Made by a program: the position numbers and the translations under genes. From Pohlia nutans (lineage: Eukaryota; Streptophyta; Bryopsida; Bryales; Mniaceae): DNA of 64,000 bases. The DNA is taken from assembly GCA_022496805.1 (NCBI GenBank), contig CM040097.1, positions 22,310,072 through 22,374,071 on the forward strand. The letters are read 5' to 3'. The notes beneath the pieces are model-generated. The model did not search any database. It was not told the origin of the DNA and worked only from the letters and a program-made list of their open reading frames with translations. This document shows positions 14,501 through 63,986 of the stretch, piece by piece (the first letter of the stretch is position 1; each line of letters starts with the position of its first letter).

Positions 14501-15436
14501 CGGGCCGCGGTCACGTACTCAAGGCAAACGAAAAAGAGGCACACAAGTCTTCAAGTTGGGCTCCTTGCATGGGATGGTCGAGCCTCCCCTGACGGGCTTC
14601 AAGAATCGAAGGTTTGAGTGCCTACGTCGCCGCTCCCCCTAAACCAGACTTAAAAATTGGAGGAACCTGAAACTCAGCTAATGTTAGAGGCTCCTTGAGC
14701 TAATGTGATTATTAAGATTATTAAGAGCACCCACAGCTCTCCGCAGCATAGTCTCATGGCATGGCATGGGAAGGGAGGCTGCCGTGACAGGTAGCAGGAT
14801 GAGGGCAGAGTGAAGCAATTGTGCACATGGTAGCCTTTGTGTTTGCTATAAATTGTTGGTGTTTGGCTGGCTCTGAGCTGAAATTTGGTGGGTCACAATG
14901 GGGTAGGAATTGCTGGTGAATGCAACCAGCCCTAGTGGCCGTTTAGACTCCGAAGGAACATACAAAATACAGTTAAGGTATTCGTAAATACCAAAATCAA
15001 AACAAAAACAACACTCCACAACAACAATCCACTCCAAAACATCTCTTCAAACCTTCACACCACAACAACACTCCACTCCATAAAGACAACTTTAAATTAT
15101 TGTGGTAACTTGGTTTGAGCTTTGATATAAAACAAAATGAAGAATGCAACTTTTGTTGGTTATGGATGAGGTGTCCGATTCTCAAGGTCGGAAAAGGAAT
15201 AGTTGTAATAATGTGCAGTATTGTACTGTACATCACAGTCAAATTCAAACAACTTGCAGTATTGTAAGGTAGAGGACCCGATTTCCAACCGGGTCCAATT
15301 CCCGACCAGTGCCAGGGCGTACATTTTAGGTTGGACCTCGAAATTCTCATGTAGCCGGTATGGACATTTTAGGGGTGGACGGTTTTTGGCACCTCTACAT
15401 CTCTAACTTCAAAAATTCATTAGTAATTCAATAATA
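14501..15436. other. Intergenic DNA after the FARSB break
   Basis: No recognisable gene. The sequence after 14500 does not continue FARSB. A pair of short inverted GGACCC/GGGTCC blocks lies at about 15276-15307, and a weakly similar inverted copy of the GTAAGGTAG-GGACCC motif occurs at about 32797-32818 on the other side of the large inverted-repeat region. Confidence 0.4.
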
Positions 15437-15468
15437 AACACTGAATTAGGAATTTTTGCACTTGGCCA
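15437..15468 (+). repeat. Left 32-bp inverted repeat of the candidate transposon
   Basis: Perfect inverted match to 32642-32673. The inner half overlaps an 18-bp perfect palindrome, TGCACTTGGCCAAGTGCA (15458-15475). Confidence 0.85.
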
Positions 15469-15790
15469 AGTGCATTGTCCGATGGCCACAATGGTGCAAA
15501 ATTTGCACTTTTTGAAATTTTACCCCCCTGAAATTTTATATATTATCAATTTTAAAATAGCAACAATACATTCATTCATATCAAATTCTCCATGTATTAA
15601 ATGAAAATGAAACATAATGAGCAATATTGTTTTATTACTATCTGATAGAAAATCAAAACAAAACGCTTCATTCCATATATAAATGAAAGCACGCACTACA
15701 AAGTAAATAATATTTGCACTATCCTACTACATCAAAGGGTTCCACCTACAGTACTTTCCTAATCTGTACTACTACTCCATCTCTTGGGTC

Positions 15791-18700
15791 TCAGGAATCA
15801 CGTGAGAGGACTGAGTTTCTACCTCCTCTCCTGTTTCGTTCTCCAACTGTTGCTCCCTCATTAGTGATTAGTGCTCTAATCTCTGAAGGGGTTCCAGGAT
15901 CAGCATAATTCAATGCTCTCGTGACCATGGCTTCCGCCACCGGAGAAGGAATGCTACCCGCGTTCAAGTCACCCTCTAAAATGGAGGCGACCTGCTCATA
16001 TGTGTAGTTACCCTCTTCTCCCACACGACGATACTTCACTCCCTCAAGGTCATGGTACAATCCGTCATCTCCAAGTGTCATACGATGATCTGCCAAAGCC
16101 CATGCAAATGACAGCGTCTTAGACTCCGTACCAGTAGTCACTCCATGTGAAGGTAACACCACTGAGCTCGGTACAGCAATCACATCTGAGAACGAAGTTG
16201 CTACCTCCATAGGTTCTTCGCGTACCTCTGGAACATCACAAATACCAGACGGAGTACTTTGGAATGTAGCACCTACCCCAACAACTCCAACCGTTGGTTT
16301 TTGTGCTACAATACGCTCCTCATTCATGTCAAAATGCTCTTCGGTCTCCTAAGCCGAATCGTTCACGTCCTTCGAGGCTAATGACTCCTCTTCTACATCT
16401 GATGAATTCCCTGGATCATAAGACTCATCCTCTGAAACATCGTCTCCTTCACCAGAATCCACGAGCTCTCCTCTTCTCTCGAGTGTATCTTCGGAGTGCA
16501 AACTTTCGCCATCCTCCTCTTCATTGTCCCCGCTTTCTTCGAACTCAGATATCTCATCCTCCGAATAATCCCCCGAATCATCTTGAGAATCATCCTCTGA
16601 CTCATCTTCAGAATCATCTTCTGACTCATCCCCCTGTTCTTCTTCATCTGCCTCCTCCTCGTCTCTAGGCTGTACAACAGAGACAGAAGCACGTTCAACA
16701 CCGATCATAGGAACTGAGGTAGATGGCCCTGCTGTATCTCCAATATCATCACGGTGTATCATCTGCAGCTCTGAATCGAATACCTCCTGTAAAGTGTTGT
16801 ACACAAAACGTGTACGAGTGGATGAACTATCCAAAACAATCACTTGATCACCGACAAAACTATCTTGCACAATGTCTGCAATGGCAGTTGTGATACCCAA
16901 TGCCACTAGCCCCCACTCCTCTGGTAAATACGCCTTCACGAGCCTACACAACTCCATTGGCGATCTCTCAAATCTGTCTGCAGCCCGTAGCATTCTTTCT
17001 TCGTTCCACATGTCCAAAAAGGCCAAAGGCAAGTTCTCTGTATTCTGCCGTAGATTTGGTGTAGCGCTAGAATCCTTAGGAAATTGCATCAGGATTGCCA
17101 CATCTCCAATAGGCTGCATACGACGCTCCACTTCCCTACCATGCACCAGATCACGCACATTCGTCGGCACCGTCTCAGATTGAAATATCCATACGCCTCG
17201 TCGTGTAGTGCTCTGTGGTGGCATCACCATCAACTCCCGCATCCTCTCGTCAAAGTCTATTCCGACAGGGAACAAGAATACCGCATTCCATCGATGAACT
17301 CCTGCCATCCACTTTTGCAACAGCTCCAAAGACCTCTTGTACTCCACATCTGTCCAGGATACATCATCTCCTCCCATGCCTCCCCGCCTACAATCAAATA
17401 TCCATAGACAAGGTTCTCCTATCTCCACGACCTCCTGCCCAAAAAAGCCTCCTCTACATCGAATAGGAATTTGACCCGTGTTCTTCCCTCCTATAGCACA
17501 CGGCACTTGTACTTGCCAATCCCACCGAGCACTTGCAATGTTTGCGACTACTCTCCGATATCCTTCATATCCTCTGCCTCCCGCAACAATGTTGGAATAA
17601 TGTTGTCTAATCATTGGAAGTATAAGTTGTTCAAACTTCTTCAAGGCCTTCACAGTCTTCACCGTTGGAGCGGCCCACGCAATCTTCATAGATTTGTCGA
17701 TGTCGGAACCCAGCACTTGGAACTGACGATGCTCTTCGCCTCCAAATTTATCTACCGGAATGGCGAAGAAATCCGACAATGACTTTAGCCGCTGCTCCCC
17801 AGACTCAACCAACATCCACCGCACTGCATTTCGGACTGCTTCTCGCCTCTGAATCTGATCCACCACCCACGCTAAAGTCTGCTGTGGGGGCTTTGCGCTT
17901 GAAGCCTTGTTGAAGTAATATTTTTGTTTCAGTCGCGTTCCATCCACAACTGTTCGTGTTGCCATGCTCCAAGCAAGACGCAGGTATTGCTGCTTGGGAA
18001 CCCTAGACAAAGGTCTCAACCACAGCCGCTCCATCCTTCTTCGATCTTGACGCACGTCCACGTTGCGATCCAACGAATGCTTCTTTGCATATGTCTCCCA
18101 CTTCCTCTCATCCTCCTTGCTGTACCAAAGCAATCCTCCCTCGTAGTCCTTGCACACTTGGAGGACAGCCTGGTAGCACTCATCATCCTCATGCCAAGCA
18201 TGTCAAGTAATCTCTAGCATCCGCTTTGCCATCTTGCCCAACGGTTCGGACTTTCCCACCAGCGATACCGTCCAATGTAATGCACTTGCTGACATTGCAA
18301 TCGCCCTCGCTCTCTGAGCATCATCCGATCGAATCTCAGGATCCGGTCTACCGCATGCATCCCAAATGGCCCGTAATTTCACCATATCCTCGTACAATGT
18401 CGTGTAGAAGCGTCGCTCAAATTCCTTCGCGTTTATTCTGACCGATGCCTCAATGTACAACTGTGGATTGTTGAATACAATGAATTGTGCCTTCCGCTGC
18501 GCATATATTTTGTTAAAAGCCTTAGTGGACAAAAGTCCATTCCGCTCCTCGGTTTGTGCCTGCTTACAAGCTGCCACAATGTGCTGACCGTCCACCGGCT
18601 CCCAAATGATATGGTTCCGCAACCAATCCATCCTATGCATGTTGGGTGCAATTGGATCATCCATCATAAAGCGCAAATAAGCTGCCTCGAATTCCTGCAC

Positions 18701-20098
18701 AGCACGGTCCGCTCGAAATTTCACTTCCCTTTGCTGCCTCTGACCATCCAAACCAATTGGCTCATCTACTATGTAGGCAAGGGGTTGAAGTGTGAGACAC
18801 GTAACAAGAGGCTCATCCGGCCCGGCTAGTTGATGATACATAAGCCTCACTCGTTCGTCCAACAAACAACGATGGTTTGTCTCCACATTTTGTACTGGAC
18901 GGATGTGGTCAATTGGAGCATCAAAAACTGCATCCATTCCCCAAATACACCCAGCTCGATACTCTTCGTCTGAGGGAAATGATAGCACTTTTCCTCTTGC
19001 TGTTCCAGTTCTTGGAATATGAACACCTTCATCATCATGAGGGACCACATCAATGTCCTCGGCTTCCTCTTTGTTCCTGCGCCGACTCCTTCCAGGATGT
19101 TGTCTTCGTGGAACGCTCCTTTGTGTACCAGCTACCGGAGCTGTCGGAGCCCTTGAAACACGAGGCTGAGATAGTGTCTCCATCCGAGCAGACGTCCTCG
19201 TCTCAAGTCTCTCGGAACCCACTGTTTTTGACAAACTTGCTCTACGCTCAGCTGCCCTCAATGACTCCCCTTGGCTTACGGTTGGTAGGACCCTTCTTTT
19301 TTGCTCTACGCTTGTAGTAGAAGATGACAACCGTAGTCCTCTCGCTGAAGAAATTATCCTTTGAGCAGATACACCCCGTGTTCGTACTGGTGTAGATATA
19401 GTACGGTCGGTTGATGCTCTCGGTGGTGCTTCATCAGTCCTACTCCAAACCCTGTGGGATGCACTAGTCGTGGGTGCTGTAGGTTCCGCAGTATCCTGAA
19501 CGGGTGCCGGTGCCGGGCGCCTTCGAGACTCTTCTGCTTGCGGCGGTACCCAATTCACGTTCAAAGCTGATGCAAGAATCCTATATATTGGATCAATTTC
19601 TTCTGGTTCCTACAACGGAGAAGAATCTTTTGGATCGTGAGGCAACTCCTTTGCCAGCTCCTCATATGTTGTGTGCTCCCGAACAGCCTTCCGAACTTTT
19701 ACAACATCTTGTGGGGTAAATGCTTTGAACTTCAGCACAGATGTCTCACGTGCTATACGAAGGTTCTCAGGCATAGTGGACTAGAGCACCTTTAGAGGCT
19801 TCAATCCCCTCAATGGTGGATTAACCTCAAGCAACACCTCCGGAACAGGGGCCATCAGGAACTTCCTTTACAACCTGATCTTTGTCATTGGTTCATTCTC
19901 TGTTGTCACAGAAAATACCAAGACATCGTTTGGTGCGGTATCAATAGATAGTATCTACCCAAACACTGTACCTAACGTTGCCCAACGTCGTCCCTCTAGT
20001 ATGGCATGCTCTGTAATCCACAACATAGGTTTGAGTGAATTTTCGGCCTCAATCCACCATTCGTGCTCTTTCCACTGGTTAAGAGTCTTAATCGTCAT
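15791..20098 (-). pseudogene. ParB-like-domain protein of the candidate transposon, damaged
   Basis: From ATG 20098 to the stop at 15791 one protein can be followed; from about 19915 onward it is a single unshifted frame of about 1,375 codons broken by five stops (19868-19870, 19781-19783, 19610-19612, 18203-18205, 16349-16351). The first 180 bp needs two 1-bp shifts (near 20035 and 19915) and holds another stop at 19956-19958. Around 18410-18925 a ParB/sulfiredoxin-like pattern is visible in order: APIDHIRP, LLDERVRLMYHQL, EPVDGQHIVAAC, AQFIVFNN, ASVRINAKE. A later part contains LWIFDCRRGG, WTDVEYKRSLELLQKWM and WNAVFLFPVG, possibly a decayed methyltransferase-like fold. Then comes a strongly acidic Ser/Asp/Glu stretch (about 16480-16680) and a conserved-looking tail. 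I do not recognise the family; the ParB call is fold-pattern inference. Confidence 0.6.
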
Positions 20099-20099
20099 A

Positions 20100-21961
20100 A
20101 CTGTACAAAAAAAACAAATCAAAACACAATTACTACTTCAAGCCTTTAGATTGTGTTGAACATTGGTCAATATTGACATGCATTCAAGATTAAAAGAACA
20201 GGTGAGAAAAACATAAACACAACAAATAATGATTCAAAAAGCTAATAAACAGCTTAGGAGATTTATAGAATCCAAAAAAAATCTTACTGGAAACAACTGA
20301 ATATAATCACAATGTACAAAACATAAGAAGTGTGATTTCAAATAATATAAATTCATAGCCTTCTAGTTTGATTATATGCATTTCCTACATGCCTTTTTAA
20401 TCCCATTATTTCACATTCAAGTAAAAAAAAATTTAGTTCTCCAAATTAAAAGATATCTATTATAAAAAACTACAAGAACTTCAACAATTGAAAATAAAAA
20501 TCTTCTATTTTCCTCTAAAGTAATTTCTTTTACATTTTTATAAAACCTTCTACAATTACTATTTAATCTACTCTAGCAACAATTATCACATTCTATAATT
20601 TACTTCTTACACTAACAAAACAAGAGCCCTCTACATTCAATTGACACATAATTTATGTTCAATAGGCAAAATTTGCTACAGTTGCCACCTTTTGACAATA
20701 CATCGCCAAACTCAACTTTACAATTTACATGCCCCTAACAACTATAAACCCTAACGAATCTTTTGTTCTTCAAATTGAAAAAAATACGTCAAATTTGAGC
20801 ATTTATGCCAAAAGTTGCTGAATATAGCAGCTTGTGACTTTAATTTTAGGAATCCAACATGAAATTTGGGTGCCTCTGACTTCTAAAAGCCCTAACGATT
20901 TTATTGTCCTTCAAATTGTGGAAAAATACGTCAAATTTGAGCATTTATACAAAAAATTGCTAAATATAGCAGCTTGTTGTTTTAATTTTGGGAATCCAAC
21001 ATGCAATTTGGGTGCCCCTAAACTCTACAAGCCCTAACGATTTTGTTGTCCTTCAAATTGTGGAAAAATACGTCAAATTTGAGCATTTATACAAAAAATT
21101 GCTAAATTTAGCAGCTTGTGGCTTTAATTTTGGGAACCCAACATGAAATTTGGGTGCCCTTGACCTCTACAAGCCCTAACGATTTTTTTGTCCTTCACAT
21201 TGTAGAAAAATATGTCAAATTTGAACATTTATGCAAAAAGTTGCTAAATTTAGCAAGTTGTGACTTTAATTTTGGGAACCCAACATGAAATTTGGGTGCC
21301 CCTAACCTCTACAAGCCCTAACGATTTTTTTGTCCTTCAAATTTGGTCAAATTTGAGCATTTTTGCAAAAAGTTACTAAATTTAGCAGCTTGTGACTTTA
21401 ATTTTGGGAACCCAACATGAAATTTGGGTGCCCCTAACCTCTACAAGCCCTAACGATTTTTTTGTCCTTCAAATTTGGTCAAATTTGAGCATTTATGCAA
21501 AAAATTGCTAAATATAGCAGCTTGTGACTTTAATTTTGGGAACCCAACATGAAATTTGGATGCCCCTAACCTCTACAAGCCCTAACGATTTTTTTGTCTT
21601 TCCATTCGGGGAAATCTACATCGAATTTCAACATTTTTGACAAAATATACTAAGTTTAGCAACTTTTAACAGTCAATATAATAACCCAACATGAAATTTT
21701 GGTGCCCATAATCTCTAGGGACTCTAATGTAGAGTTTTTGTTTTAATTTGCTTTAATTTATGTGAATTTGGATGTTCGAGGTCTAAATATGCTAAATATA
21801 GCAGCTGATGTCTATATATTCAATTCAAATTCGATGTTTAAAATGTGATTGCTCATAACTACGTGCAATCAATTGTGAGATCAAATGATTCAAGGTGAAA
21901 TCTACATATAAAATAAACGTTTTTGAAAATATACAAATTTAAAAATAAAAATAAAACTTAC
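20100..21961 (-). other. Predicted leader intron of the ParB-like gene
   Basis: On the minus strand a donor (CTGCAG|GTAAGT, exon end 21962) and an acceptor (TTTTTTTTGTACAG|TTATGACG, exon start 20100) frame this stretch, placing the acceptor two bases before the ATG. The intron would contain the 7-copy tandem repeat. No coding exon lies inside. Confidence 0.55.
20700..21735. repeat. Tandem repeat, about seven copies of 132-144 bp
   Basis: Each copy contains GTCAAATTTGAGCATTTAT, TTGCTAAATTTAGCAGCTTG, CCAACATGAAATTTGGGTGC and CAAGCCCTAACGATTTTT in the same order. Repeat marks fall near 20787, 20929, 21073, 21211, 21346, 21478 and 21615. The outer copies are the most diverged. It lies in the predicted leader intron of the ParB-like gene. 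Confidence 0.85.
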
Positions 21962-22005
21962 CTGCAGTTGTTATAAGTCACGACGTTCTCTCCAATAAAT
22001 CACAC
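21962..22005 (-). other. Predicted second 5' UTR exon of the ParB-like gene
   Basis: On the minus strand it is bounded by an acceptor (AATTTTTGTAG|GTGTGA) and a donor (CTGCAG|GTAAGT). It has no in-frame start and is predicted to be non-coding. Confidence 0.45.
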
Positions 22006-22167
22006 CTACAAAAATTTAAAGAAATCAATGTTAAAATCATCTTACATATGCATTTTTTAAAAATTGATAAAAAGAACTAGGGCTATATGTCATACAATGA
22101 CTATATATTAATTCTTACAACCAAATCTAGTGTCATTTGCAAAAAAAAAGAGTGGTGAGAGAATTAC

Positions 22168-22225
22168 CTTTGAGAGGAAATATGTGAAATGTGAGGTTTT
22201 AGGTGGGAAGGTGGGCCTTATATAG
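22168..22225 (-). promoter_or_regulatory. TATA box and first leader exon of the ParB-like gene
   Basis: The minus strand reads CTATATAAGGCCCACC (TATA box 22217-22225), followed about 50 bp later by a donor site CTCTCAAAG|GTAATT (exon end 22168). The spacing suits a plant core promoter with transcription starting near 22190. Together with the downstream leader exon this gives a plausible intron-containing leader for the ORF starting at 20098. Confidence 0.55.
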
Positions 22226-22283
22226 TTAGAACTAGTAGTTCACTTTTAGAACTAGTAATTGGCTTTTAAAAAAGACATTTGAT

Positions 22284-22480
22284 CCTTTGGCGCGTCCTCC
22301 CAAAGGACGCGCTTGCCAACCCCGCGGAGCTCCGCGGGGTTGGCAAGGCTAGCCGGCCAGGCCGGGGCCGGCCGGCCTTCTGACCCGCCCCGTCCCGCCT
22401 GAGCGGCGGGCGGGCCAGGAAGCCACTGCAGAGCAGCGGCTCTGCATGAGCAGCTGCTCTGCAGCAGCCGGCGGAAAAAA
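22284..22480. repeat. GC-rich palindrome cluster between the divergent genes
   Basis: In otherwise very AT-rich DNA, three hairpin-forming blocks follow one another. GCGCGTCC...GGACGCGC lies at about 22290-22312. A 34-bp perfect palindrome is centred on GAGCTC (22313-22346; outer arm TTGCCAACCCCGCGGAG). Blocks rich in GGCCGG/CCGGCC and then CTGCAGAGCAG/CTGCTCTGCAG run to about 22470. Confidence 0.8.
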
Positions 22481-23400
22481 ATATTGTTATTATTATTATT
22501 ATTATTTTTAAATTTTTTAAATTTTTTTTTTTTAAATTTTTTGTTTTTTTAATTTTTTGTTTTTTTGTTTTTTTGTTTTAAATTTCGTACATTTTATTTT
22601 TTTGCTTTTTGTTTTTTGTTTTTTATGATTATTAATGCTAATACTATTTTATTGTTGGGAGAAAATATGTTTTTTAAATGTTTGAAATTTCTTTAAAATT
22701 AGTTTGTTTTAATTGTTTCAATAATTTAAAAAAAATTATGTTTGACATAAATTTAACATGAATTTTTAGCATTAAAAATTTATAAATTTTTATATGAATT
22801 TTCAAAATTCTTTGCTTTAGAAAACGTTTTGAATTTTTCTTTTTCTCTTTTCTTCTTTTCTCTTCTAAATTTTTTTTTCTTCTCTTCTAATTTAGTTTCT
22901 TCCTTTATATCTATTACACAAATGGTTTTCAATTTTTAAAGTTGTTTGTTTTAAAATAATTTTTGAATTTTATTTTTCTCTTGTCTTGTCTTCTCTTCTA
23001 AATGTTTTTTTTTCTGTTCTCTTCTAATTTCTTTTCTTCCTTTATATGTAGTATGCAAAGTTTCCTAAATTTTTTAAATTGTTTGTTTTAAAACATGTTT
23101 GAATTTTATTTTGTTGTTTTGTTCTCTTTTCTTCTAAATGGTTTTTTTTCTCTTGTCTTCTCTTCTATTCTCTTCTAATTTTATTTTTCTCATGTCTTCT
23201 CTCCTCTTCTGTTTTCTTCTAAATTTTTTTACTTCTCTACTGTTCTATTTTTTTTCTTCTCTTATATGTAGTACGCAAATTTTTTTGAATTTATAAAATT
23301 GTTTGTTTTAAAATATGTTTTGAATTTCTCTCTTCTTTTCTCTTTTCTTCTCTTCTAAATTTTTCTTCTTCTATTCTCTTCTAATTTTTGTTCTTCTCTT
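22481..23400. repeat. T-rich low-complexity tract
   Basis: A TTA microsatellite (about 22484-22507) leads into long T and TTTTG runs and then about 0.5 kb of TCTTCTCTTC-type pyrimidine repeats with recurring TTAAAATTGTTTGTTTTAAAA-like blocks. No gene. Confidence 0.7.
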
Positions 23401-24256
23401 TTATCTAGTACACACTTAAAGACATGTGTTTTATTGAACCATGTACTTTGGAATATGTTCAGGTCACATGGGATGGATGAAATGTGAAGTGGCAAAGAAA
23501 ACACATCTCATTATGTGAGGTACGATAAATCAATTTCACCTTTGTTGTGTATGAAGTAGAATATTAACATTCTTTGAATGTAATTTGTTGGAATGAATTG
23601 TAAAAGAGGTTCTTTTGACATGACAAATTACTGATTTTTTTTGTTCTATAAATGTATGACTACATTGTCACAATGCAATTTTTGAACTAAAGACAATGAA
23701 ATTTTTGAATTCGAGTCAATGAAATGAATAGTCTAAAAATTAGACATTGGGACATATAAGGGTCAGTGGTAGGAATTTTTTTGTGATTAATTCCTAAATG
23801 TCCAACCAAGAAGAATGTGGACGATGTACAATATCAAACACAGATTTCTCATCCTTCATTGATTTTTGCAGTGTGGAATTTTTAGTATATATTTGATGGA
23901 AAGTTAGCTTTATGCATTTGATCCGATTAGAAAGGGAATGATTTGTGAAAATTGTATGCCTCATTTCATAAATTTAAGAAACCCAAAAATCTCCAAATGT
24001 CACTACACTTAAAGTATTACATTCCAACCAATCACCAAACAAATTTATGTACAAATTGTGGATATCTTATTTGTAATCAAAGTAGAACAGAATTTCCAAT
24101 TTTAAGTTTTAATTTTTATACAAAAATATTGTTGACAACTATCATAGATCTAAACGTATGAATAGAATTAACAATTCACAATGTACAAATGTTATTCATT
24201 TATCAAGTTCAAAATATCTCTCTTAGTTACATTTTATTTAAATTGTGAATCAAAGA
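23401..24256. other. Remnant of the TTAA-type MITE family and flank
   Basis: From about 23795 (CCTAAATGTCCAACC, GATGTACAATATC, TTTCTCATCC) to about 24240 the sequence follows the 565-bp MITE family. Its right end was lost and replaced by the hairpin cluster. No coding exon. Confidence 0.5.
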
Positions 24257-24484
24257 AGTAATAGCATGTTGACGTAAGCTTGAGGTGGACCTCAAACCTA
24301 CCTCAATACACTTTTACTTTTTTGATCTAATATGTATATTTAAGTAAAAGCGTGTTGAGGTAGGCTTGAGGTGTACCTCAAACCTACCTCAACACGCTTT
24401 TACTTTTTCAGTGTAAATTATATTTTAAAATAAAGGTAGGCTTGAGGTGTACCTCAAACCTACCTCAACACGCTTTTACTTTTT
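24257..24484. repeat. Triple hairpin repeat (AGGTAGGCTTGAGG type)
   Basis: Three related long inverted repeats follow one another: 24257-24322, 24342-24406 and, with a shortened left arm, 24434-24484. In the middle one the arms (GTGTTGAGGTAGG / CCTACCTCAACAC, extended by AAAGC and TAAAA) pair over 23-24 bp around a small loop. Confidence 0.85.
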
Positions 24485-26620
24485 AATTTGATCTACATTT
24501 AATATAACTAGTGAAAGACCGGTATATATACCAACAATTTCCGGTAAAAGTATGAAGTAATTTCACAGTATCTACAAAATGCAATAACCATCAAATCAAA
24601 CCAACACAACCCATTTTGAGAATATTCCTCTATATTGGTATTTTGAAATGGTATTCCTAAGATTCTCAATGTATCAACCCCTGTGACTTTTTGGGGTTAA
24701 CCTTTCAGCGTCTACACTAAAGTTTTGTGCTCAAATCTCATTAGCTTCTCACATTAAAAATTATATTATTTTTTTCTTGTACTTTTTCATAATTACATAA
24801 ATGATTTAGTAATTCCTTAATTTACTAAAATAGTATGAATTTTTTTTAGGGAAAATGAAAACAATAGTGATGACCTACAAATTGTAGGTGGCATGCTTTT
24901 TGAGCCTACATAGAGAATTTCGATAGGAAAACTTTTGTAATGATGTGAATTGGAATTTTAAGGTTTGGAGTTCTAAACTATTGTAAAAAAATCAATTTAA
25001 CAATTTAGATGAGGGGTAAAAATGTCAAAAATCTTTCCCTTTAAAATCGGTGCACACTTAAAATTGATAGTTTTTGGTTGCTTAATTGAATGACCACATT
25101 TTGGATTAATTGAGATTTCGAGAAGAATAAGGATTAAAATTGAAATAAAAATTAAAACTAAAAAGGATGAAATTTGTTGTGATGGGTTCAAATGTAACCG
25201 TAAGTGTACCTAAGTGTAGTCAAAATCTTATTCCTATTCAAATTACAAAAGAGTTTTGAATTTTTAGTTTCAAACTTTATTGGTGATAGCAATCGTAGAT
25301 CAAACCGTATGGATAGAATCTAAAAATCATAATGTACAATTTTTATTCAAACATCAAGTTATCCAATGTACAATTTTTATCCAAATATCCCTCTTAGTTG
25401 AATTTTATGATGCATATTTGCAAAATTGCCGAATTTAGAGAAGGTGGGGATGTTTAGCGGTATAACCGTTGGGCCGTCTGCTTGGGTGTTCGTTGTGCCA
25501 TCCGCGGGGGTAAAACCGGTGTGCCATCTTTCTACCCCGTTGGTAAAAAGACCCAATTTTCCTATTACGTGGACGTTGGGACGCGAACGTTCACGTCCCA
25601 GCGTCCAAACAACCCTGCACTTAGAGTATTACATTGTAACCAATCACCAAAAGAATTCATGTACAAATTGCGAATACCTTATTTGTAATCAAATTACAAA
25701 AGAATTTTCAATTTTAAGTTTCAATTTTTATACAAAAATATTGTTGACAACTATCATAGATCTAAACGTATGAATAGAATTAACAATTCACAATGTACAA
25801 ATGTTATTCATTTATCAAGTTCAAAATATCCTTCTTAGTTACATTTTATAAGACATCTTTGAAATTCTTGAATTCTGAAGTGGGGTGAGGACGTTTAATA
25901 GTGAACCTCTAAAAGCCCGTGGGATATTGGACAAAACATAGATGTATTATAGTATGTGCCTTCCATATGTTTGATGAAGTGTGGATCAATGGACAACATG
26001 TACAACATCATCTCTACAAATTAGGGCCATACGGCCAAACTTCAAAAAGAAATTGTAGAAATTTTTCTAATGAATTCAAAAGCATTAACTTTTGAGAAAT
26101 TGTATAAATTATAATTTTCACTTGTAGAATTTAAAATTTATCATAATTGGTTAAAGTTGGTTTATCTATTGTAAACTTCAAAAAAGAAAAAGAAATGACA
26201 AAGGGAACATCATTACTAACCCCAAATTGCGAATTCTATAACATTTATACAATGTTCAGGTGATTCACTTTGAAAATTTCTCCCCAGTGGAGTGAAACTG
26301 GGATAGACATAATTCAAATTTAGTTGAAAAGTAGATTTGATGAAGTAGTTTAAAATATTATTTATTTCTTCAAATACTTATTTTTATATTTCAAGCAACC
26401 TGTTAAAATCGGACAGCGACGAAAAATGGTCTCTTGGGAGCTTAGGGGTGAAAGAATATCTTTTCAAATACACGTACACTTAATTAGTTTCTAATTGTAA
26501 CCTCATTGTAGTCCCATTGCATAAGGGTGTTGCCGCCTATTACTATAGTATGTTATTTCTATTTTTAAACTTTGAAATTATTAAATGATATTGTAGTAAA
26601 ATGAATCAATGGATTTGCAG
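24485..26620. other. AT-rich DNA with further MITE scraps
   Basis: No gene. Positions about 25200-25450 and 25610-25900 resemble the interior and right end of the 565-bp TTAA-type MITEs (GTGGGGATGTTTAGCGG, GGTGAGGACGTTTAATAG), with unrelated sequence (about 25455-25610) between. A single GGGGTTAA end lies at 24693-24700. Confidence 0.45.
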
Positions 26621-28576
26621 TTTGAGTAGCCATTTTCTTTGGAGTGGAAGGAAAAATGGACGGGAGAGCATTTGGAAGTCCTGTGGCAACGGTGAATGCA
26701 ACGATTTGCGCACTTAGAAGTGTGGGACACAAAATTATCCGAGCTACTCGCATCCGACTATTTCAAGAACCTTGTCCATCGACACAACAAGGCACGGAGG
26801 TCCGAGAAAGAGGCATTGTGGAGCTTCTAAATGCAAACAACATTGTTGTTGGGACGGGAGTGATAGACATCAGCCTTAAATGTGGAATGGAGTTAAATGC
26901 GGTGAAATTATGTCCTTTTGAAGTTGCTATCCGTGTTGTGCATGTTTATGATGGCTTTGTATGGACAGGGGAACTTGTTGGAGAACGCTTAAGCCAATGT
27001 GTGGGTCTTACCATACGATGGGAGAAGGCACGTGAACGTACTCTAGAAGGGACGTCAACTAGTATTGGCCAATCAAGTGAAGGACAAAATTTCTCATTTC
27101 TTGCAGTTGTAGCATCGCAATTTGAGTTTGAAGATGAAGTTATGCCTTCCAGCCGCTCTAATGGTGTACCAAACACCCCAGAGGACTATGGTACTATAGG
27201 GAACATGTCTCCTTTGACAGAGGGTTTACGTTGTAGCACTGGAGAGATCCCACGTGTTGACGGTTTACCAATGGAGACCCAAACGAGGCGTTATCATATG
27301 CAAAACCGCAGGAGGCGAGCACAGACGCCACGTGAGAGGGGAGAACCACTGGGCCAAAAAGTTACATTGGACAGTGTTTTGGCAGGAAAGAGGCAAGGGG
27401 GGTGCAAACAAAACTGTTTGAGGGATGTGGATGAGAAGTACATACTAGACCAACGGTACATGGCATGGGGTCAAAAGTATGAGCAACGGGCGACATGGAT
27501 GTTGCAGATGTTGAATGCGTTCTACTCTCGAACGGAGGGGATAAGGAGGGACAAGTTTAAGACAAAGTTGGACGACTTAGACGTATGCAATGCATGCTAT
27601 GCAAAAGCCCTTGAATACTCTCAATTGAAGGTGTCTCACCAAGTGTACGGAAGAGTTGCAGCTGTACATGGAAACACGTGCAAGCTAAGAGAAGGTGCAA
27701 AGAAGTCTGCAGCACGTGAGTGTTTCGGGGAGTTTGTGAGAGAAGTCGGTTGTACACAACCGCATCGACAGATACGGCGGAAGTTGGACAATACTATCGT
27801 GCCTCTGATATTGCTGCCCATGAACACCACAAAGGTGGATGTGTTCCACTATGTGAACGAGGAGGTGAAGAAGCTGGTTAATGGGGAGCCGCTTTCAATC
27901 ACTTCATTTCATAGATTGTGGCGCATTGAATTTCCACACATTCAAATACCGCCATTCTCTAGATTCTCAAAATGCTACCATTGTTGGGAGTATAAGTGTG
28001 GAATGGAAGCAACTACTAATGCAGCTGCAAGAGTGGAGATCAAGAAGCTGTACATCGTGCACATCAATCATCAAATGGAAGAGAGACGTGACTATTGGTT
28101 GTTCAAGAGGTCGGCAATGATAACTCTTGACTTCTACATGTGTTTGATCGTGGACGGCATGGACCAGAACACGACTATGGTTCCGAAGATGAGGCAGACG
28201 GTGAAGAACATAGAGTCGAGATTTGTGAAGACTCACTTGTGTGGGTTACTTGTGCACGGGATTGGTTTGTATGCGGATGTCTGGATAGATGCACACCACA
28301 AGCACGACAGCAACCAAGTGATTACAACAGTGATGCATGTGATTGCTGACGTGAAGAAGAGGAAGGGCAAATTGGCGCCGACATTGCGAATTCAAGCGGA
28401 TAACACAACCCGTGAGAACAAGAACATTTACATGTTTGCCATGTGTGCATCACTCGTGGGGTTGGGGTTTTTTGAGGTGCAACTTTGTTTTCTTGTAGTA
28501 GGCCACACACACGAAGATATTGATCAGTGCTTCAGCATCATATCGAACACGTTGAAGAGAACAAACATTGACTCAT

Positions 28577-30244
28577 CACTACAAGGAAATGGGTGTCGAA
28601 ATGACAAGATTTTGATAGAGAAATGTCCAAGATGATGATTGCAACAATTGCCTTGTATAGGCCTGTCATATCGGTTAATTTTTGATTTTTTATCAACTTT
28701 TTGTCAATTTTTTGTCAACTCTTGTTGCACTTTATAGCGTGGACGCACAAAGTGTGCTGGAACTAATGATAATTTTACTTGCAAAATTACCTGCAAGACC
28801 ACTGCTACTGGAGAGGCACCACGTGTAAGGGCGGAATTTTTGTACAGGTCGACGTGTACAGATTGGATGAATGCATGTGGATGAACGGAGCGACAGTAAA
28901 CCCACGTCCCACTACCGTAAATGAGCCTGGGGTGTGAACGCAACCCCAAACGACACCGTTGGATCCTCACAACATCGGATGGCACAAAGAGCGATTAGGT
29001 TAAAGGAAAACCCCAAGCTTCGTCCCTTTGCGACCCCTCTTTGCTGTGTGACACTCTTGGTTGATGAAGGTTGAATTCAATGAATAAGAGATTTAAATGT
29101 CGGGGGTGTGCTTTGTAGATTGTGCTTCCTGTTTCTGTTTGCGGGCTTTTTGAACTTGAGGAACGGATTTGTCAAAGACAGAGTTAGTGGTATATATTAC
29201 CTCAAGAGGTGGCCACGGTGCTTGATATCTTGCTCAAATGATCTAATGAATGTAATGTTTCTGCTTGCGGACTTTGAGCTCAAACAACGGATTCATCGAG
29301 GCACAGTTAGAATAGTAGTATATATTACCCATCCTAGACTCAAGTGTATTACTAAGGGTGATATTAAAATCTTGCTCCTCAACACTCATTCTTTCGATCT
29401 TTGGAGGTGGTGACCTTGTTTTTGGTGAAATAGTAAAGGTGAATCTAATTAGTATAATGTTGGAGAGTCTTGGTTTTTTTCTCAAGTGGTAATATAGAGC
29501 TTTCGAACATTCAAACTGCGTAGACTGTATCTGTATTCCAAGGTTTCAGAACCCGTGTAAAGGAGTTGAAATCCGTGGGTTTATTGGCAGGGGTTTGAAT
29601 CCGTAGATTTATTATTTGCAGGGGGGGTTTGCAGCGATGATCACGATGCAGGATGTGGCGGGGTCACTGGGAATCGGGGTGCCGATGCTGTGGTTTTTGG
29701 TGTCGTTCATGGCGTCGATCCCGGCGAGTTGGCTGTGGCGATTCATGCCGGGCGTGCAGGTGCGCAATGTGTACGCCGCGGCCAGCGGCGCCGTGCTGTC
29801 GCAGTGCGCATTCGGCGCGTCGTCCAACGCCTACTTCATGCTGCCCATCGTCGTCATGTACGCGGCCATGGTGCTCAATCGACGCAAGTGCGGCGTCATC
29901 TCGGCGTGGATAGGAAATAACTACGAGAGGACCTACTCAAAACAGCCAAAAATAGAAACATAATAATATACCCAGTCTAGGAAACTTCCACAAAATCCAT
30001 GAAACTCACTGGAAATTTTTACCCGTGCACGAAAACTAACTACTGTCCACATAGACTGCTGACTTGGCTAGGAATTCCACCGTGGCGACGGCCATGCATC
30101 TGATGTGTATCTATGTCCGTATTGACAGACGAAATGACTAATTTTTGTCAACAAAGTGACCGAATCAGGGTCTCCTAATTGACGGAGCAATTGACAATTT
30201 TTTGTCGAAACTTCGTCAATTAGGACACAGATCTCCTTGTAGTG
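28577..30244. mobile_element. Non-autonomous CACTA element carrying a gene fragment
   Basis: The ends CACTACAAGGA / TCCTTGTAGTG are perfect inverted copies (11 bp, then TGTC/GACA again after a 6-bp mismatch). The flanks are CAT on both sides (28574-28576, 30245-30247), the 3-bp duplication expected for CACTA/En-Spm. TTTTTGTCAA-type motifs repeat near both ends (28690-28725 and 30115-30230), as in subterminal transposase-binding regions. It is 1,668 bp and has no transposase; it carries the 5' part of an acyltransferase gene. Confidence 0.9.
29637..29915 (+). pseudogene. MBOAT lysophospholipid acyltransferase, first exon only
   Basis: ATG 29637 begins MITMQDVAGSLGIGVPM, followed by FMASIPASWLWRFMP, YAAASGAVLSQCAFG and RRKCGVISAWIG. 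This is the N-terminal transmembrane part of plant LPCAT/LPLAT-type membrane-bound O-acyltransferases, which reacylate lysophospholipids at the ER. Homology ends near 29915 without a donor GT, so the catalytic His/Asn region is absent. Upstream sequence (about 28745-29636, including an acceptor-like TTTGCAG) looks like the gene's own promoter and leader, so a 5' block seems to have been copied into the CACTA element. GC content is well above the surroundings. Confidence 0.8.
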
Positions 30245-31470
30245 CATTGAAACAGCTTCTCCAACTGGTGGAGAAAGGATCATCATATACAGAGGCCTTT
30301 GTGAGCGCAAGACATTTGGAGAACGTGAGGGACTGGAAATCGTTTATTACACCTCATCTTTTAACGAGGGGCGATGCACTCACCGACATAACCTTCCCAC
30401 ACCACATGAGATTTTATATGGAGAATGATGTGCCTCGCGTACAACACAAGCATTTTAGCAAGGACGCATGGGAGCCAACAGAGGGGCATTTGTGTTTACG
30501 TTCCTTGCCTAGTGTGTCGGAGAAGCCTGATCTGGCGAAGGTGTTTGGTGCGGATGAGAGGGAGCTGAAAGCTCTGGATGAGTTTATTAGATACAAAGAA
30601 AGATGTGTGGAGAGATTACAGAATGTAGAGAGGAATCTGGAAGCCATTGATGAAGTGAAATGGTTGGCCTCATATCTAAAAGAGTTTCCGAATATGAACA
30701 GGGATGATGAGAGGACAAAACCATTTTGGGTGGATGAGCCGGGAAGAGATTCAAGTGGGGTCACTGAACCGGATGGAATGGTTGAAGGGGACGATGACAC
30801 AAATGCAATGAATACGGAGGTCGGTTTAATCATGGCAACTATGCCAAATCCAGAAGCTCGACGGTACTTTGGTCCTCGTAGGGGGAGACCTTCGGCAGTG
30901 GCCGTGACAACGGTACCAAGGAGAAGAGTTGTGGTTGCTATGGATGGAACAACAACCACAACATCTACTGTAGGAGCTGAAGATCCTTTCCCACCGTTCA
31001 ATCCGGAAAGTGACATCAGAGTTGGGCACTTTGTGGCTCTCACCGTGGAACCAGTAGAAGTGCGAGCTGGTGTACCGTTCTATGTGAGGAAGGTGCTAGA
31101 GTTTGGATAAGGCAAATGGGCTGCAAAGATGAAGGTTGTGTGGTATTGGCCCATGAGAGGATGGGGAATGCAAGATGAGCGGGAGTCTAGTAGAGCGAGG
31201 TATACGAATTGCATGGAAGCATTTTGGGAGCCATCTGGTGAGGGACACGGATGGGTTGTCAAAGACGCGGCTATATTTTCATGGGAAAATGCACCGATAA
31301 GAACAAGGAGTGGGCTTGTACATGAGAACAATGTGCCAGTGCATGGCGAGCTGACGGAGGCAAAGATCAAAATTCCAACAGAAGCAAAACCGCATTTGGT
31401 GGAGTATATTGCACTACAATTGGAAGAGATGGACAACGAACGTTTGCAGAATGACCTTGATGCATATTAA

Positions 31471-32641
31471 AAGGTTTAGTACGTCGTATGAGACACATGA
31501 TACTATGAGTTGTATTACGTAGCAGCGATAGCTGTATAGTATAGCGCAACGTGTATTATTTGGTTGATCGTGCATGAGTGATTTGAATGACTTGATGTTT
31601 TGGTAGAAAAATGTCCATAACTTTGTATCCATTTTGACTACCTCCCTTAATAGGGTGGTTGCAAGCTACGGTCACCCAAACTTTTTGTCGCGGCATGCAA
31701 ATTTGTGCACTTACCCAATCTTTGGAAAATCATTAATAAATATTGGAATGGAATTTTGTGACGAAACAAATTGCATTGTTTCTAGAATTCTAAAGTTAAG
31801 ATGTCTACCACAATAAATTTTGCAAATTTTCAATCTTTCTATCCAAATTAAGCATTTCTACTTAGATTTGGTAGCATGTCGCTTGTCAAAAGTGCACCTG
31901 TTTTCTGGGAAATGCTAGAAGGGGGTCAAAATTGAACTTCAAAAATTTATAGCAACATACCACAAGTGTGTACAAAGGTACCATATTTTATTTTTTTGGG
32001 TACTACGCTTACTTATTTTTTAATTAATTGTTTGGTGATGTTTTTGTTTTTTAAGATTTTCGTGCAGTTAAAACTTTTTTTTGGATTTTTTTTTTTGGAA
32101 ATGAAATAATGGTTCAATTTCAGAGGTGGGATATGAAATGTATTTTTCATAAAACCTAGCTAAGGATGTTATGTAAAAAAGGCTCTAATTACCCCTACTC
32201 GGTAAAAAACAGAAAAGGCTATTGAGTAATGCCCAAAGACTTGAAATTAACTTAACAATTGCTAAAGTGAAAGTATTAGCATAAACCCTATTTGGGATGG
32301 TGAAATTTTTGATCTAATTGAAAGTTGAGAGGTGCGCATTACTACGCTAGTGCACGAGCTGCATAGCCTTTAGCTGCACAAGCTGCACTCCCCACTTGGT
32401 AGACCGTAGCTTGCAATCACCCAATACATTGGTTTGGAATAAATGGAGTACCAAATGCAACATTTTAAAATGCATGTGTGACCAAATTTGCTTGATTGGA
32501 GTAAGTTGAAACCCCCAAAATTCCCACTTTAACACTTCCTAAATTCACAGCCCGTAAAACCCACGAGTACCAAAATTATACCCCCCCCGCAACTTGGAAA
32601 AGGTCAATTTCTATTCGACGGGCAACAAGTGCATTGTCATA
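31471..32641. other. Inner right flank of the candidate transposon
   Basis: AT-rich DNA without coding exons between the transposase stop and the right inverted repeat. A C-run lies at 32581-32588. Nothing else recognised. Confidence 0.4.
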
Positions 32642-32673
32642 TGGCCAAGTGCAAAAATTCCTAATTCAGTGTT
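32642..32673 (-). repeat. Right 32-bp inverted repeat of the candidate transposon
   Basis: Perfect inverted match to 15437-15468. It is followed by AATA, also present outside the left copy. Confidence 0.85.
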
Positions 32674-32677
32674 AATA

Positions 32678-50220: not shown

Positions 50221-51530
50221 CCCCTAAGTGACCAAATAGACTATTTTCTGGTCGCAGCCCAAACAACGGTGACCGCCCATGGGTAGGAAATGACATTTTC
50301 AAGTTTTGGATTTTTGTTTAACCCTTAACTGCCCAACCATGCATAATATGCATGATGTACAGAATCAAACTCCGATTTCTCATCCATCATGCATTTTTGC
50401 AGTAAAATTTTTTTAGTGAATTTTTTTATGGGAAGTTAGCTTTGTGCACGTGTGATCCGATTAGAAAGGGGATGATTTGTGAAACTTCATGCCTCATTTT
50501 ATGTTGTATTGTTTCACCAAAAATTTCTAAGATTTTAGTCTAAAAGTGCTCTTGAAAAAAAAAGCTCATAAAATTAAGAAACCAAAAAATCTCCAAAAAT
50601 CACTACACTTAGAGTATCATATTTAAACCCATCACAACAAATTTCATCCACAAATTGTCAATATCTTATTTGTAATCAAATTACAAAATAATTTTGAATT
50701 TTATATTCCAAAATTTATTGAAAAATATTGGTGAAAGCAATCGCAGATCTAACCATATGGATAGAATCTAAAATTCATAGTGTACAACTTTTATTCATAC
50801 ATCAAGTTCAAAATATCCATCTTAGTTGCATTTTATGATTCATCTTTTCAAAACTCCCCAAACTGGACAAAGGTGAGGACGTTTAGGGGTTAAATTGGGG
50901 GTCGAGATCATGTTCTAGTGCTTTTTGATACATTTCATTTGCAACATTTATTGGTCATGCCACTTCTCCAAGATAAATTTAGGCCATTAAAGCCATTTTT
51001 AGATTTTGCATGGAGTCCCAAGTACAAAAAGAGTAATAAAAACGGTTCACTATGTAGTGTATTTTGGATTTTTTTGTTTTTTTTGCTGAAACTAAATTTA
51101 GGCCATGAAAATGAGTTCTATTGCATTTGAGCTTGACTAAGAAAATAAAAGTTACCAAGTCTAGTCTCTACCCGTCTTTGAATTTTTGAAAAACTCTGAT
51201 AATTGAGTGTTTTATTTGGAGTTACAAGTTCAGTGGGTATTACCAAGGTGTAGCAAAAAGTTATAAATTTAAACACGGATGATTTTCATTTATTGTAATT
51301 TGCACCTTTAGATAGAAAATTGGAATTCTTGAGTACATTTTGTAATTGATATGAATTGTTTTTACAATCACTTCAAAAAATCATATTAATTTCAAATTTT
51401 CACCAAAATTATGAAAGAGTCATAATTTATAATAAACACATGGCTTCATCTACTAAAAATATATGGTTGAATTTTTATCTTCTTTATAGTGACAAAATTG
51501 AGTGTCACATGTAAGCATGATTCTATGCCT
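50221..51530 (+). mobile_element. Longer TTAA-type MITE split by a second one
   Basis: The left end CCCCTAAGTGACC (after TTAA 50217-50220) resembles the start of the 59400-60124 copy, and 50900-51525 follows the middle and right part of that copy (AAATTTAGGCCAT, GTAGTGTATTTTGGAT, CATGGCTTCATCTACTAAAAA). Between them sits the complete element 50332-50889. The terminal right end is lost. Confidence 0.6.
50332..50889 (+). mobile_element. TTAA-type MITE (558 bp), nested
   Basis: Ends CCCTTAACTGCCCAACC / GAGGACGTTTAGGGG with TTAA at 50328-50331 and 50890-50893. It is closely similar to 58646-59213. Confidence 0.85.
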
Positions 51531-58049: not shown

Positions 58050-58641
58050 TATGACTTTAACGTTTTTAATATTTTTGAGTGCATATAGAGTATAAGATGT
58101 TCCAAGGGCCTGTACAAATATTATAAAAATATTGCGGGACAATTTTAATTAGGAAATCATACATTAATATACGATTTATGATATATGGACATTGTAGTAT
58201 ATCCTATATGTACCATTTGATAATCATATGATACACATTATACATAACATGATATATGGTGTGTACAATATGATATATGGTATAGGTCCATCTCAAAAAG
58301 TCATTGAAGCTAATCAATTAATTGTACTAAACCAAATGCGCACATTTGCTTGAATAGAATTCCAAGGCATTATCAGTCAAAAGTGAACTTTTTATCTTCA
58401 TTTTTTAAAATCTTTTCATTGAATACATGTATGGTGCAAGACGTTATTCATAGTTGACGAGTATATTTGGGTTTGGATTAAGAGAACCTCAATTTTAAAT
58501 TAAAAAATCATTTTAGAAATCCCACTATATATTTTTGGAAAATATGATGCTACTACAAAATCATCCCAATTCATATTTACTAGAATAGATTTGTAACATA
58601 TTTTAATGAGATTTAATTATTAAAAATATGGTATATGCTAT
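58050..58641. other. AT-rich DNA, nothing recognised
   Basis: Contains several near-repeats of TGATATATGGTGTACAAT-type text (about 58180-58285) and no gene. Confidence 0.4.
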
Positions 58642-58645
58642 TAAC

Positions 58646-59213
58646 CCCTAACTGCCCAAGCAGGCGTTTTTGGCCTGATGTACAGATTTCATCCGTATTT
58701 TCTCATCCGTCAAGCACTTTTTGTGGTGTAATTTTTTTATTGAATTTTTTATGGGAAGTTAACTTCATGTATGTGTGATCCGATCAAAAAGGAAATAATT
58801 TTTGAAAAAATTATACCTCATTTTGTGTTGTAGTGTTTCACCGAAAATCTTGAAGATTTTGGTCTAAAAGTGTTCATGAAAAAAAAAACTTTTAAAATCA
58901 AGCATCCAAAAAATCTCCAAAAATCACTACACCTAAAGTACTACATTATAACCCATCACAACAAATTTCATCCACATATTGTCAATATCTTATTCGTAAT
59001 TGAATTACAAAGTAATTTTTTATTTTATGTTTCAAAATTTATAAAAAAAGATTAGTGATAGTAGTCATAGATCTAACTGTATAGATAGAATCTAAAATTA
59101 AAAATGTATAACTTTTATTCATACATCAAGTTCTAAATATTCATATTGATTGCATTTTATAATGCATCTTTGCAAAACTGCCTAAACTGGACATAGGTGA
59201 GGACGTTTAGGGG
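58646..59213 (+). mobile_element. TTAA-type MITE (568 bp)
   Basis: Ends CCCCTAACTGCCCAAGC / GAGGACGTTTAGGGG with TTAA at 58642-58645 and 59214-59217. One of the best preserved copies of the family. Confidence 0.88.
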
Positions 59214-59399
59214 TTAAATATTGTTGAAGAAATGCCCAAAAATGTAAACTTGAGTGGTTTTGTACTAGCAAAGACCAATCCAAAAAAAACCAATAGCCTT
59301 GATAATCACAAAATAGAAGAAGCCATTCAAAAAAGGGATTGTCTCATGAAACCTATACCATAAACAATTTATCCTTGAAAGATTCATCAATTTCTTTAA

Positions 59400-60574: not shown

Positions 60575-60578
60575 TTAA

Positions 60579-61148
60579 CCCCTAAATGCCTAGAGCCCTC
60601 TCCAAATTCGGCAGTTTTGCAAAGCTGCATTATAAAATGCAACTTAGAGGGATATTTTGAACTTGATATATGAATAAAAGTTGTACATTATGAATTTTAG
60701 ATTCTATCCATATAGTTAGATCTATGATTGCTATTACCAATAATTTTGTATAAAATTTGAAACGTGAAATTCAAAATTATTTTGTAATTCAATTACGAAT
60801 AAGATATTGACAATCTACGGATGAATTTTTTGTGATTGGTTGAAATGTAATACTCTAAGTGTAGTGGTTTTTGGAGATTTTTTGGTTGCTTAATTATATG
60901 AGTTGACTTTTTTTTAGAGCACTTTTACACTGAAATCTTCATTATTTTGGGTGAATCACTACAACATGAAATGAGGCATAAAATTTTCACAAATCATCTC
61001 CTTTCTAATCAGATCACATATGCATGAAGCTAACTTCCCATAGAATCTACAGTAAAAATTCCACACTGCTAAAAGTGCATGGCGGATGAGAAATTATGGA
61101 TGAAATCTATACATCGTCCAAAAAATGGACGCTTGGGCAGTTAAGGGG
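60579..61148 (-). mobile_element. TTAA-type MITE (570 bp), reverse orientation
   Basis: Ends CCCCTAAATGCC / GGGCAGTTAAGGGG with TTAA at 60575-60578 and 61149-61152. The interior is the reverse complement of 58646-59213. Confidence 0.85.
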
Positions 61149-61152
61149 TTAA

Positions 61153-62152: not shown

Positions 62153-63769
62153 TCAATAGTTGCCAATGTGCTTTACGTAGTTAGGGTTTTCCACAGGAAT
62201 CTTAGAGAACGATACCTGGGAGGAGAGGGACGGGCGGTCATTGTATGCCGAAGTGTACGAGGATCCGGACTCGTAAAAGGTGCGGGGATTGTACTCGCGG
62301 TCGTCTGTGGTGTACTCGGCGTCGTGGTTACGGTGGCGGCCCAAGGATGGCATCCGGCGGATGGGGGCGAACGACCGCTGATCGCTAGGCTCCGGTCGCT
62401 GGTCGAAGCTGGTGATGTACTCGGCGTCATTGTACTTGTGCTTGCCTAACGAAGGCATGCGACGGAACCCAGTGTAGTCTTTGGGCTCGTAATCCTGGCC
62501 GCGGGGGCCGACGCCGTCGTACTGCGTCATCTTGCCGCTCGCGAACGACGGCATCCTGACCAACTTGCTGCCCGGGCCTGGACTCGGCCGACTAACAGTC
62601 GGAGGTGCGAGGATGCCAGACCTTTCCACGGCTTCGTAGTAGCCAGACGGGGTCGTCTTCTCTGGGCGATTACTGGAGCTGTCGTCGGCTCGGTTGCTGA
62701 TCAGCTCGCATTTCTTCTTCACCGCTCGCTCCGCCTTCGTCAAGCATCTGTCAATGTCGATGAACTTGTCACCCGTGACAATCACCCGGGAGTTTTTCGG
62801 GTCGCAGCGGACGGTTTCCACGCCATCCACTTCGCTCAGCTCCTCCTGCACCTTCTCCTTGCACTTGTCGCAGCACATGGGCACCATGAGCTCGATCACG
62901 GATCCGCCGGAGGATTTCCGGTACTCGCGCGGGGATGCTTGTGACGTTCTTACGTACTCACCGACACGAGGGGAGACCTCGGCGGGGCGGCGGGGTGATG
63001 ACTCGCTGATGCCATAGGGCTGGCGGTACTCGGATCCACGGGGAGAGGAATCGCTAATACCATATGGCTTGCGGTACTCTCCCCGTGACTCTGTTCTGGT
63101 ATCATAGCTACTCCGGATGTAGTCGTCGTCCAAAGCTTGGCCGAATGGCTTTCGGTATCCGCCAGCAGTCCCGTTCGCTGGATAACTGCTGCGCGGTTCA
63201 GGAATCGAGTTCGCTGGGTACCCGCTGCGCCCATCGACAGTTGGGGTCACTGGATATCCGCTGCGCGCGTCAGGAATTGAATTTGCTGGGTATCCGCTGC
63301 GCCCTTCGACAGGATAGCCACTGCGCCCTTCAGTAGGATAGCCGCTGCGCCCTTCGGCAGGATAGCCACTGCGCCCTTCGACAGGATAGCCGCTGCGTCC
63401 TTCCGCAGGATAGCCACTGCGTCCTTCGACAGGATAGCCGCTGCGCCCATCGGTAGGATAGCCGCTGCGTCCTTCAGCAGGATAGCCGCTACGCCCATCG
63501 GCAGGATAGCCGCTGCGGCCTTCGGCGGGATATCCGCTGCGCCCATCGGCAGGATATCCACTGCGCCCATCGGCAGTGGCGTTCACTGGATATCCGCTGC
63601 GCGAGTCGATCGAGTTCGCTGGGTACCCGCCACGCCCTTCGCTTGGATACCGGCGCGCTTCGGCAGACGCATTCGCAGGATCCCCATAGTATCTGTTGGA
63701 GCCTGGGGACTGGCGTTGGTCGTACCGATACCAGTACTCTTTTTCATCGTCGTCTTTTCCCTTCCATAG
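62153..63769 (-). CDS. Heavy-metal-associated (HMA) domain protein, 5' exon missing
   Basis: Probable cytosolic or membrane-linked metal-binding or metallochaperone-like protein. The visible exon gives 538 residues in one frame down to the stop at 62153. Its left border is a likely acceptor (CCATGGCAG|CTATGG, exon from 63769); no in-frame ATG lies before an upstream TAA, so the start codon is in an exon further upstream, perhaps outside the window. The visible part opens with LWKGKDDDEKEYWYRYDQR and a Tyr/Pro/Gly-rich stretch. Then come 12 tandem 8-residue repeats GRSGYP[A/T/V][D/E] (about 63285-63575) and a single HMA domain (about 62690-62905) with ELMVPMCCDKCKEKV, where the two Cys of CxxC are C-DK-C. 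The tail has MPS-rich motifs and ends NPNYVKHIGNY, without a CaaX farnesylation box. Similar to plant HMA proteins outside the isoprenylated HIPP class. Confidence 0.85.
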   Translation of the reverse strand, partial: LWKGKDDDEKEYWYRYDQRQSPGSNRYYGDPANASAEARRYPSEGRGGYPANSIDSRSGYPVNATADGRSGYPADGRSGYPAEGRSGYPADGRSGYPAEGRSGYPTDGRSGYPVEGRSGYPAEGRSGYPVEGRSGYPAEGRSGYPTEGRSGYPVEGRSGYPANSIPDARSGYPVTPTVDGRSGYPANSIPEPRSSYPANGTAGGYRKPFGQALDDDYIRSSYDTRTESRGEYRKPYGISDSSPRGSEYRQPYGISESSPRRPAEVSPRVGEYVRTSQASPREYRKSSGGSVIELMVPMCCDKCKEKVQEELSEVDGVETVRCDPKNSRVIVTGDKFIDIDRCLTKAERAVKKKCELISNRADDSSSNRPEKTTPSGYYEAVERSGILAPPTVSRPSPGPGSKLVRMPSFASGKMTQYDGVGPRGQDYEPKDYTGFRRMPSLGKHKYNDAEYITSFDQRPEPSDQRSFAPIRRMPSLGRHRNHDAEYTTDDREYNPRTFYESGSSYTSAYNDRPSLSSQVSFSKIPVENPNYVKHIGNY

Positions 63770-63986
63770 CTGCCATGGCCGAGCACACAGACGATTTTCA
63801 GTGATATAGTGAAACCCTTACGCAATCGAGAAACTTCATGCACATATGCGTGGCAACAGGAAAATGTAACCGGCACCGACCAATAGATGTAATACGAAAG
63901 GCTCTAGTTGTAAGACGAACCAACAATATCCGGTCCCAGAATTTCTCAAAATTTTGTGCACTCTCCTCATCAAGTTCAAGATTCTA

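Follow-up and report, generated by a model that had tools for sequence, protein, structure and literature searches.

A putative giant two-gene DNA transposon with a DUF7869 gene in the moss Pohlia nutans

Transposons of the Sola group have a DDD transposase, duplicate 4 bp of their target, can exceed 15 kb in size and are present in moss, with terminal inverted repeats (TIRs) of 11–1124 bp (PMC10741241; here and below, statements on published elements extend to the available excerpts of the sources cited). The target duplications of Sola2-type elements in two amoebae are AT-rich, and in one of the two follow an AWWT pattern (PMC3627910). Giant DNA transposons commonly harbour nested, unrelated transposable elements (TEs) and frequently carry extra genes, mostly of unknown function; Sola1-1_Ec32 from the brown alga Ectocarpus is 21.5 kb long and has, on the strand opposite the transposase, an accessory gene for a protein of 1104 amino acids (aa) with ParB-like and N4/N6 DNA methyltransferase domains (PMC12477816). 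Here we describe a locus in a 64-kb stretch of Pohlia nutans DNA (contig CM040097.1, positions 22,310,072 to 22,374,071; hereafter the window, in which all coordinates are given), where two divergent damaged genes lie between perfect inverted ends. We consider the locus to be probably, though by no means certainly, a decayed copy of a giant two-gene, Sola-like, cut-and-paste DNA transposon, measuring 17.2 kb with its nested inserts.

Self-comparison of the window confirms the perfect 32-bp inverted repeat, 17.2 kb apart, that had been reported in an earlier note on this DNA: the two TIRs agree in 32/32 positions and, within the window, occur at these two sites only (Table 1). With up to three mismatches allowed, the outer 21 bp of the TIR match exactly twice in 64 kb (shuffle mean 0.00), and the inner 16 bp, with up to two mismatches, again exactly twice (shuffle mean 0.15), a count likewise reached by 1 of 100 shuffles. 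The TIR is also the longest perfect inverted repeat in the window with a spacing above 5 kb. The tetranucleotide AATA stands directly outside both ends, as the same note had said, an agreement with a chance probability of about 0.005 from local composition when the boundary is taken as given, and a 4-bp target duplication is likely, albeit ambiguous with respect to TAA. Just inside the ends, two copies of the motif CAAGTGCATTGTC lie in direct orientation, and the core of this motif, GTGCATTGTC, occurs three times in the window in all, counting both strands; together with the palindrome GCACTTGGCCAAGTGC at the left end, these copies would fit putative protein-binding ends.

Several observations on the ends weigh against the Sola-like reading. 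TIR length alone is not decisive, as perfect inverted pairs of 30 bp occur twice more in the window, although these are the cores of 136- and 175-bp repeats with 86–87% identity, while the 32-bp match ends sharply. Shortening the TIR by one base gives a 31-bp repeat with a 3-bp TAA duplication, which in a single copy is equally valid and rivals the 4-bp interpretation. Finally, AATA falls outside the AWWT pattern given for one amoeba group in the available part of PMC3627910.

Both genes between the ends are damaged and divergent, as had been noted earlier, gene 1 on the minus strand with six stops and gene 2 on the plus strand with one stop and an insert. The identification of the gene 2 product as a DUF7869 protein (PF25273) is firm, with an E value of 7.1e-38 and a score of 130.6 bits against a Pfam cut-off of 26; its intact relative P0026, 1053 aa long, scores 170.8 bits. 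Two stretches of gene 2, of 649 and 426 residues, are 95% and 94% identical to P0026, respectively, and the damage to the gene relative to P0026 comprises one premature stop, two small in-frame deletions and one nested CACTA element. The latter is flanked by a 3-bp duplication, CAT, at 28574-28576 and 30245-30247, as is proper to CACTA elements, and its removal joins the flanks as TNIDSLKQLLQLV, in frame and exactly the sequence of P0026. Gene 2 was therefore in place before the CACTA insertion.

For gene 2 and P0026, the Pfam scans gave DUF7869 and, below threshold, ToxB_N, with no further families; PDB sequence searches with gene 1 or gene 2 gave nothing significant. Fold comparison of the gene 2 protein produced weak matches to RNase H-like and transposase structures; among homologues with letters at the positions concerned, D627 is present in 20/20 and E626 in 18/20, and an RNase H-like fold is weakly supported. 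These predictions are consistent with gene 2 being a putative transposase, as the earlier note had proposed, possibly with a DDD pattern rather than the DDE type named there.

The frame of gene 1 is interrupted by six early stops (at 19955, 19868, 19781, 19610, 18203 and 16349, giving the low coordinate of each) but by no frameshift, and an unbroken alignment with one of its relatives runs from 20101 to 15968. Of its relatives, 25 (E <= 0.001) came from one search and 77 (E <= 0.01) from a profile search; 58 of the latter were new, including six of 1037-1339 aa (P0065-P0070). The label 'ParB-like', formerly attached to the gene 1 protein, is not supported: no ParB family was found for gene 1 sequences in Pfam (26 scanned at E<=1, 16 at E<=10) or among the three scanned in NCBIfam, hhalign and fold searches for ParB were negative or at the level of noise, and a PHROGs scan of 26 sequences returned unnamed families only, with one member each and a best E of 0.078. 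No named family of any kind was found for gene 1 in Pfam, PHROGs or NCBIfam. A motif that we had by eye assumed to be ParB-like, and a C-terminus that we presumed to have a methyltransferase layout minus the catalytic motifs, both came out negative or as noise in the comparisons run. The idea of one element with two proteins keeps its inverted ends, likely duplication, divergent genes and DUF7869 protein, and is left without support for the ParB-like identity. The outer element is of an autonomous type by design and is dead in its present copy; since neither full protein can be made, this copy could be mobilised only in trans.

Table 1. Features of the outer element and its nested inserts (window coordinates).
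Feature	Position	Strand	Remarks
Left TIR, 32 bp, perfect	15437..15468	+	AACACTGAATTAGGAATTTTTGCACTTGGCCA
Right TIR, 32 bp, perfect	32642..32673	-	exact reverse complement of AACACTGAATTAGGAATTTTTGCACTTGGCCA, ends at 32673
Left 4-bp target duplication AATA (likely)	15433..15436		alternative: TAA 15435-15437 with 31-bp TIR
Right 4-bp target duplication AATA (likely)	32674..32677		alternative: TAA 32673-32675
Subterminal motif CAAGTGCATTGTC, left copy	15467..15479	+	overlaps palindrome GCACTTGGCCAAGTGC at 15458-15473
Subterminal motif CAAGTGCATTGTC, right copy	32626..32638	+	direct orientation relative to left copy
Gene 1, partner protein	15791..20098	-	ATG 20098, stop 15791-15793, one frame of 1435 codons
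Gene 2, DUF7869 transposase-like protein	26656..31470	+	ATG at 26656; premature stop 31108-31110
Tandem array, ~7 copies of 142-bp unit	20730..21717		between genes; perhaps in gene 1 leader intron
TATA-box-like CTATATAAGG	22216..22225	-	candidate gene 1 promoter, by eye
GC-rich consecutive hairpins	22290..22465		upstream of TATA-like site
Partial copies of dispersed repeat (~580 bp elsewhere in window)	23778..25897		inside transposon spacer
Nested CACTA (En/Spm-type) element	28577..30244	+	ends CACTACAAGGA / TCCTTGTAGTG; inside gene 2
Nested MITE-like element, 770 bp	31653..32422		ends GGGTGRTTGCAAGCTACGGTC, 20/21 by eye; AATA both sides

The spacer between the genes (20.1-26.6 kb) contains splice-like sites, recognised by eye and putative. 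Its GC palindromes, also described previously, are borne out by folding: as DNA, the segment 22280-22480 reaches -83.9 kcal/mol, compared with -52.4 for shuffles (z -9.1). The DNA around the hairpin run is AT-rich, and the run lies immediately upstream of gene 1's TATA-like site. A tandem array of 86-bp units at 24256-24484 (~2.8 copies, each near-palindromic, GGTAGGCTTGAGGTGTACCTCAAACCTACC) is also present, and the dispersed repeat that is found in part in the spacer has long copies at 2074-2657, 50318-50896, 58636-59219 and 60575-61152, which are 78-84% identical to each other. The nested CACTA element holds a GC-rich open reading frame (ORF) at 29607-29963, with a putative resemblance to exon 1 of a plant lysophospholipid acyltransferase gene, for which neither Pfam nor PDB searches gave confirmation; it is possible that this CACTA is a gene-capturing element. 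The insert resembling a miniature inverted-repeat transposable element (MITE) would, from inspection by eye, be a second element that duplicated 4 bp, AATA, and its chemistry is perhaps related to that of the outer element.

In a Sola-like mechanism, the gene 2 product would act as the transposase, with an SH3/Tudor-like N-terminal module and a predicted RNase H-like core containing the acidic residues D505/D508, D587 and D627. Bound to the 32-bp ends, it would cut the element out and connect it to an AT-rich target with a 4-bp stagger. The gene 1 product may be a large, acidic-tailed partner working on the DNA of the element itself; its simplest role would be to bind subterminal or GC-palindromic sequences, thereby helping synapsis or controlling expression and silencing. 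A bolder proposal, which we offer tentatively and do not expect to hold in full, is that of a land-plant lineage of DDD transposons in which a divergent DUF7869 transposase is always accompanied by such a partner, from a protein family lacking known domains and serving as an obligate DNA-binding cofactor or a self-epigenetic regulator on subterminal or GC-hairpin sequences, and possibly representing a worn-down ParB/methyltransferase protein of the algal Sola kind.

The coupling of the two genes may be questioned, as the same transposon could have the DUF7869 gene as its sole transposase and gene 1 as a captured passenger without a role in transposition. We consider this unlikely, if far from negligible. 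Extra genes, mostly of unknown function, are frequent in giant DNA transposons (PMC12477816, in part), gene 1 has six stops where gene 2 has one outside the nested insert, and no longest contig is visibly common to the relatives of the two genes, a comparison of one contig per cluster that is weak evidence. However, the 1435-codon frame of gene 1 is unshifted and its six long relatives exist, unlike what a random host fragment would give, and in the excerpted description the Ectocarpus element likewise has a large opposite-strand gene (PMC12477816).

More improbable is a Harbinger-like two-gene element, in which a 31-bp TIR starting ACACTG and a TAA duplication would go with a transposase and its partner. 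The two-gene layout, and the TAA at both flanks of the shortened TIR, which is of the 3-bp TWA type, do fit PIF/Harbinger; neither a Harbinger transposase nor a Myb-like partner appears, however, in the Pfam scans of either gene's sequences, those of gene 2 and P0026 having yielded the two families named above and those of gene 1 relatives no Myb-like domain. It is very improbable that the ends belong to unrelated dispersed repeats, inverted by accident around two host or pseudogene loci: the two other 30-bp inverted repeats in the window do derive from longer repeats, but those span 136 and 175 bp, whereas the TIR stops sharply and is absent from the rest of the window, and the two ends share the direct subterminal motif and the same 4 bp on their flanks. 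A CACTA-type outer element with CACTG ends is hardly credible, for while the TIR contains a CACT- start (CACTG from 15439) and two genes are also typical of CACTA elements, the 3 bp beside CACTG..CAGTG mismatch (AAA / TTA) and Pfam scans of gene 2 lack a CACTA transposase domain.

Searches of viral contigs with the gene 2 profile, the gene 1 profile and the exact 30-bp end, and of GTDB genome contigs with the gene 2 and gene 1 profiles, found no relatives, and the peptide-pattern matches in the four profile scans (6, 24, 53 and 7 stretches) were in no case confirmed. Neither the Rfam scan nor the tRNA scan of the window gave a hit. In the open-licence literature searched, 'DUF7869' is unmentioned, and no described land-plant element with the gene 1/gene 2 pair was found. 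The host genes of the window encode a proteasome alpha-type subunit and thioredoxin-domain, PHD and HMA proteins, indicating nuclear eukaryotic DNA; the HMA domain lies in a minus-strand ORF (62153-63817) with a 24-bp tandem repeat at 63294-63576 that codes for an SGYP-rich stretch.

Should the pairing of the two genes prove constant, DUF7869, for which Pfam gives no known function, would turn out to be a family of transposases, and another protein family, also uncharacterised, would be recognised as partnering a transposon in land plants. For algae it has been suggested that the proteins carried by giant DNA transposons read or mark the DNA of the element itself (PMC12477816, as excerpted); this idea would then extend to plants, and annotators would gain a name for many 'hypothetical' genes.

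The two-gene element probably represents a variation on an established type. On a comparison of features rather than of transposase sequences, Sola would be the best-fitting known group, and the available evidence partly supports placing the element nearer to Sola than to Harbinger, provided that the 4-bp duplication is correct. Terminal inverted repeats identical in 32/32 positions and within the Sola length range, an AT-rich 4-bp duplication (if AATA is the right reading), a possible DDD pattern and a large size would be the shared features, while an accessory gene of the gene 1 family is absent from the Sola descriptions in the excerpts of PMC10741241 and PMC3627910. The closest published design appears to be that of Sola1-1_Ec32, a likeness of layout as far as the excerpted account goes: although the ParB-like and methyltransferase domains of the algal protein are not detectable in gene 1, both elements combine giant size with a large opposite-strand accessory gene and nested TEs.
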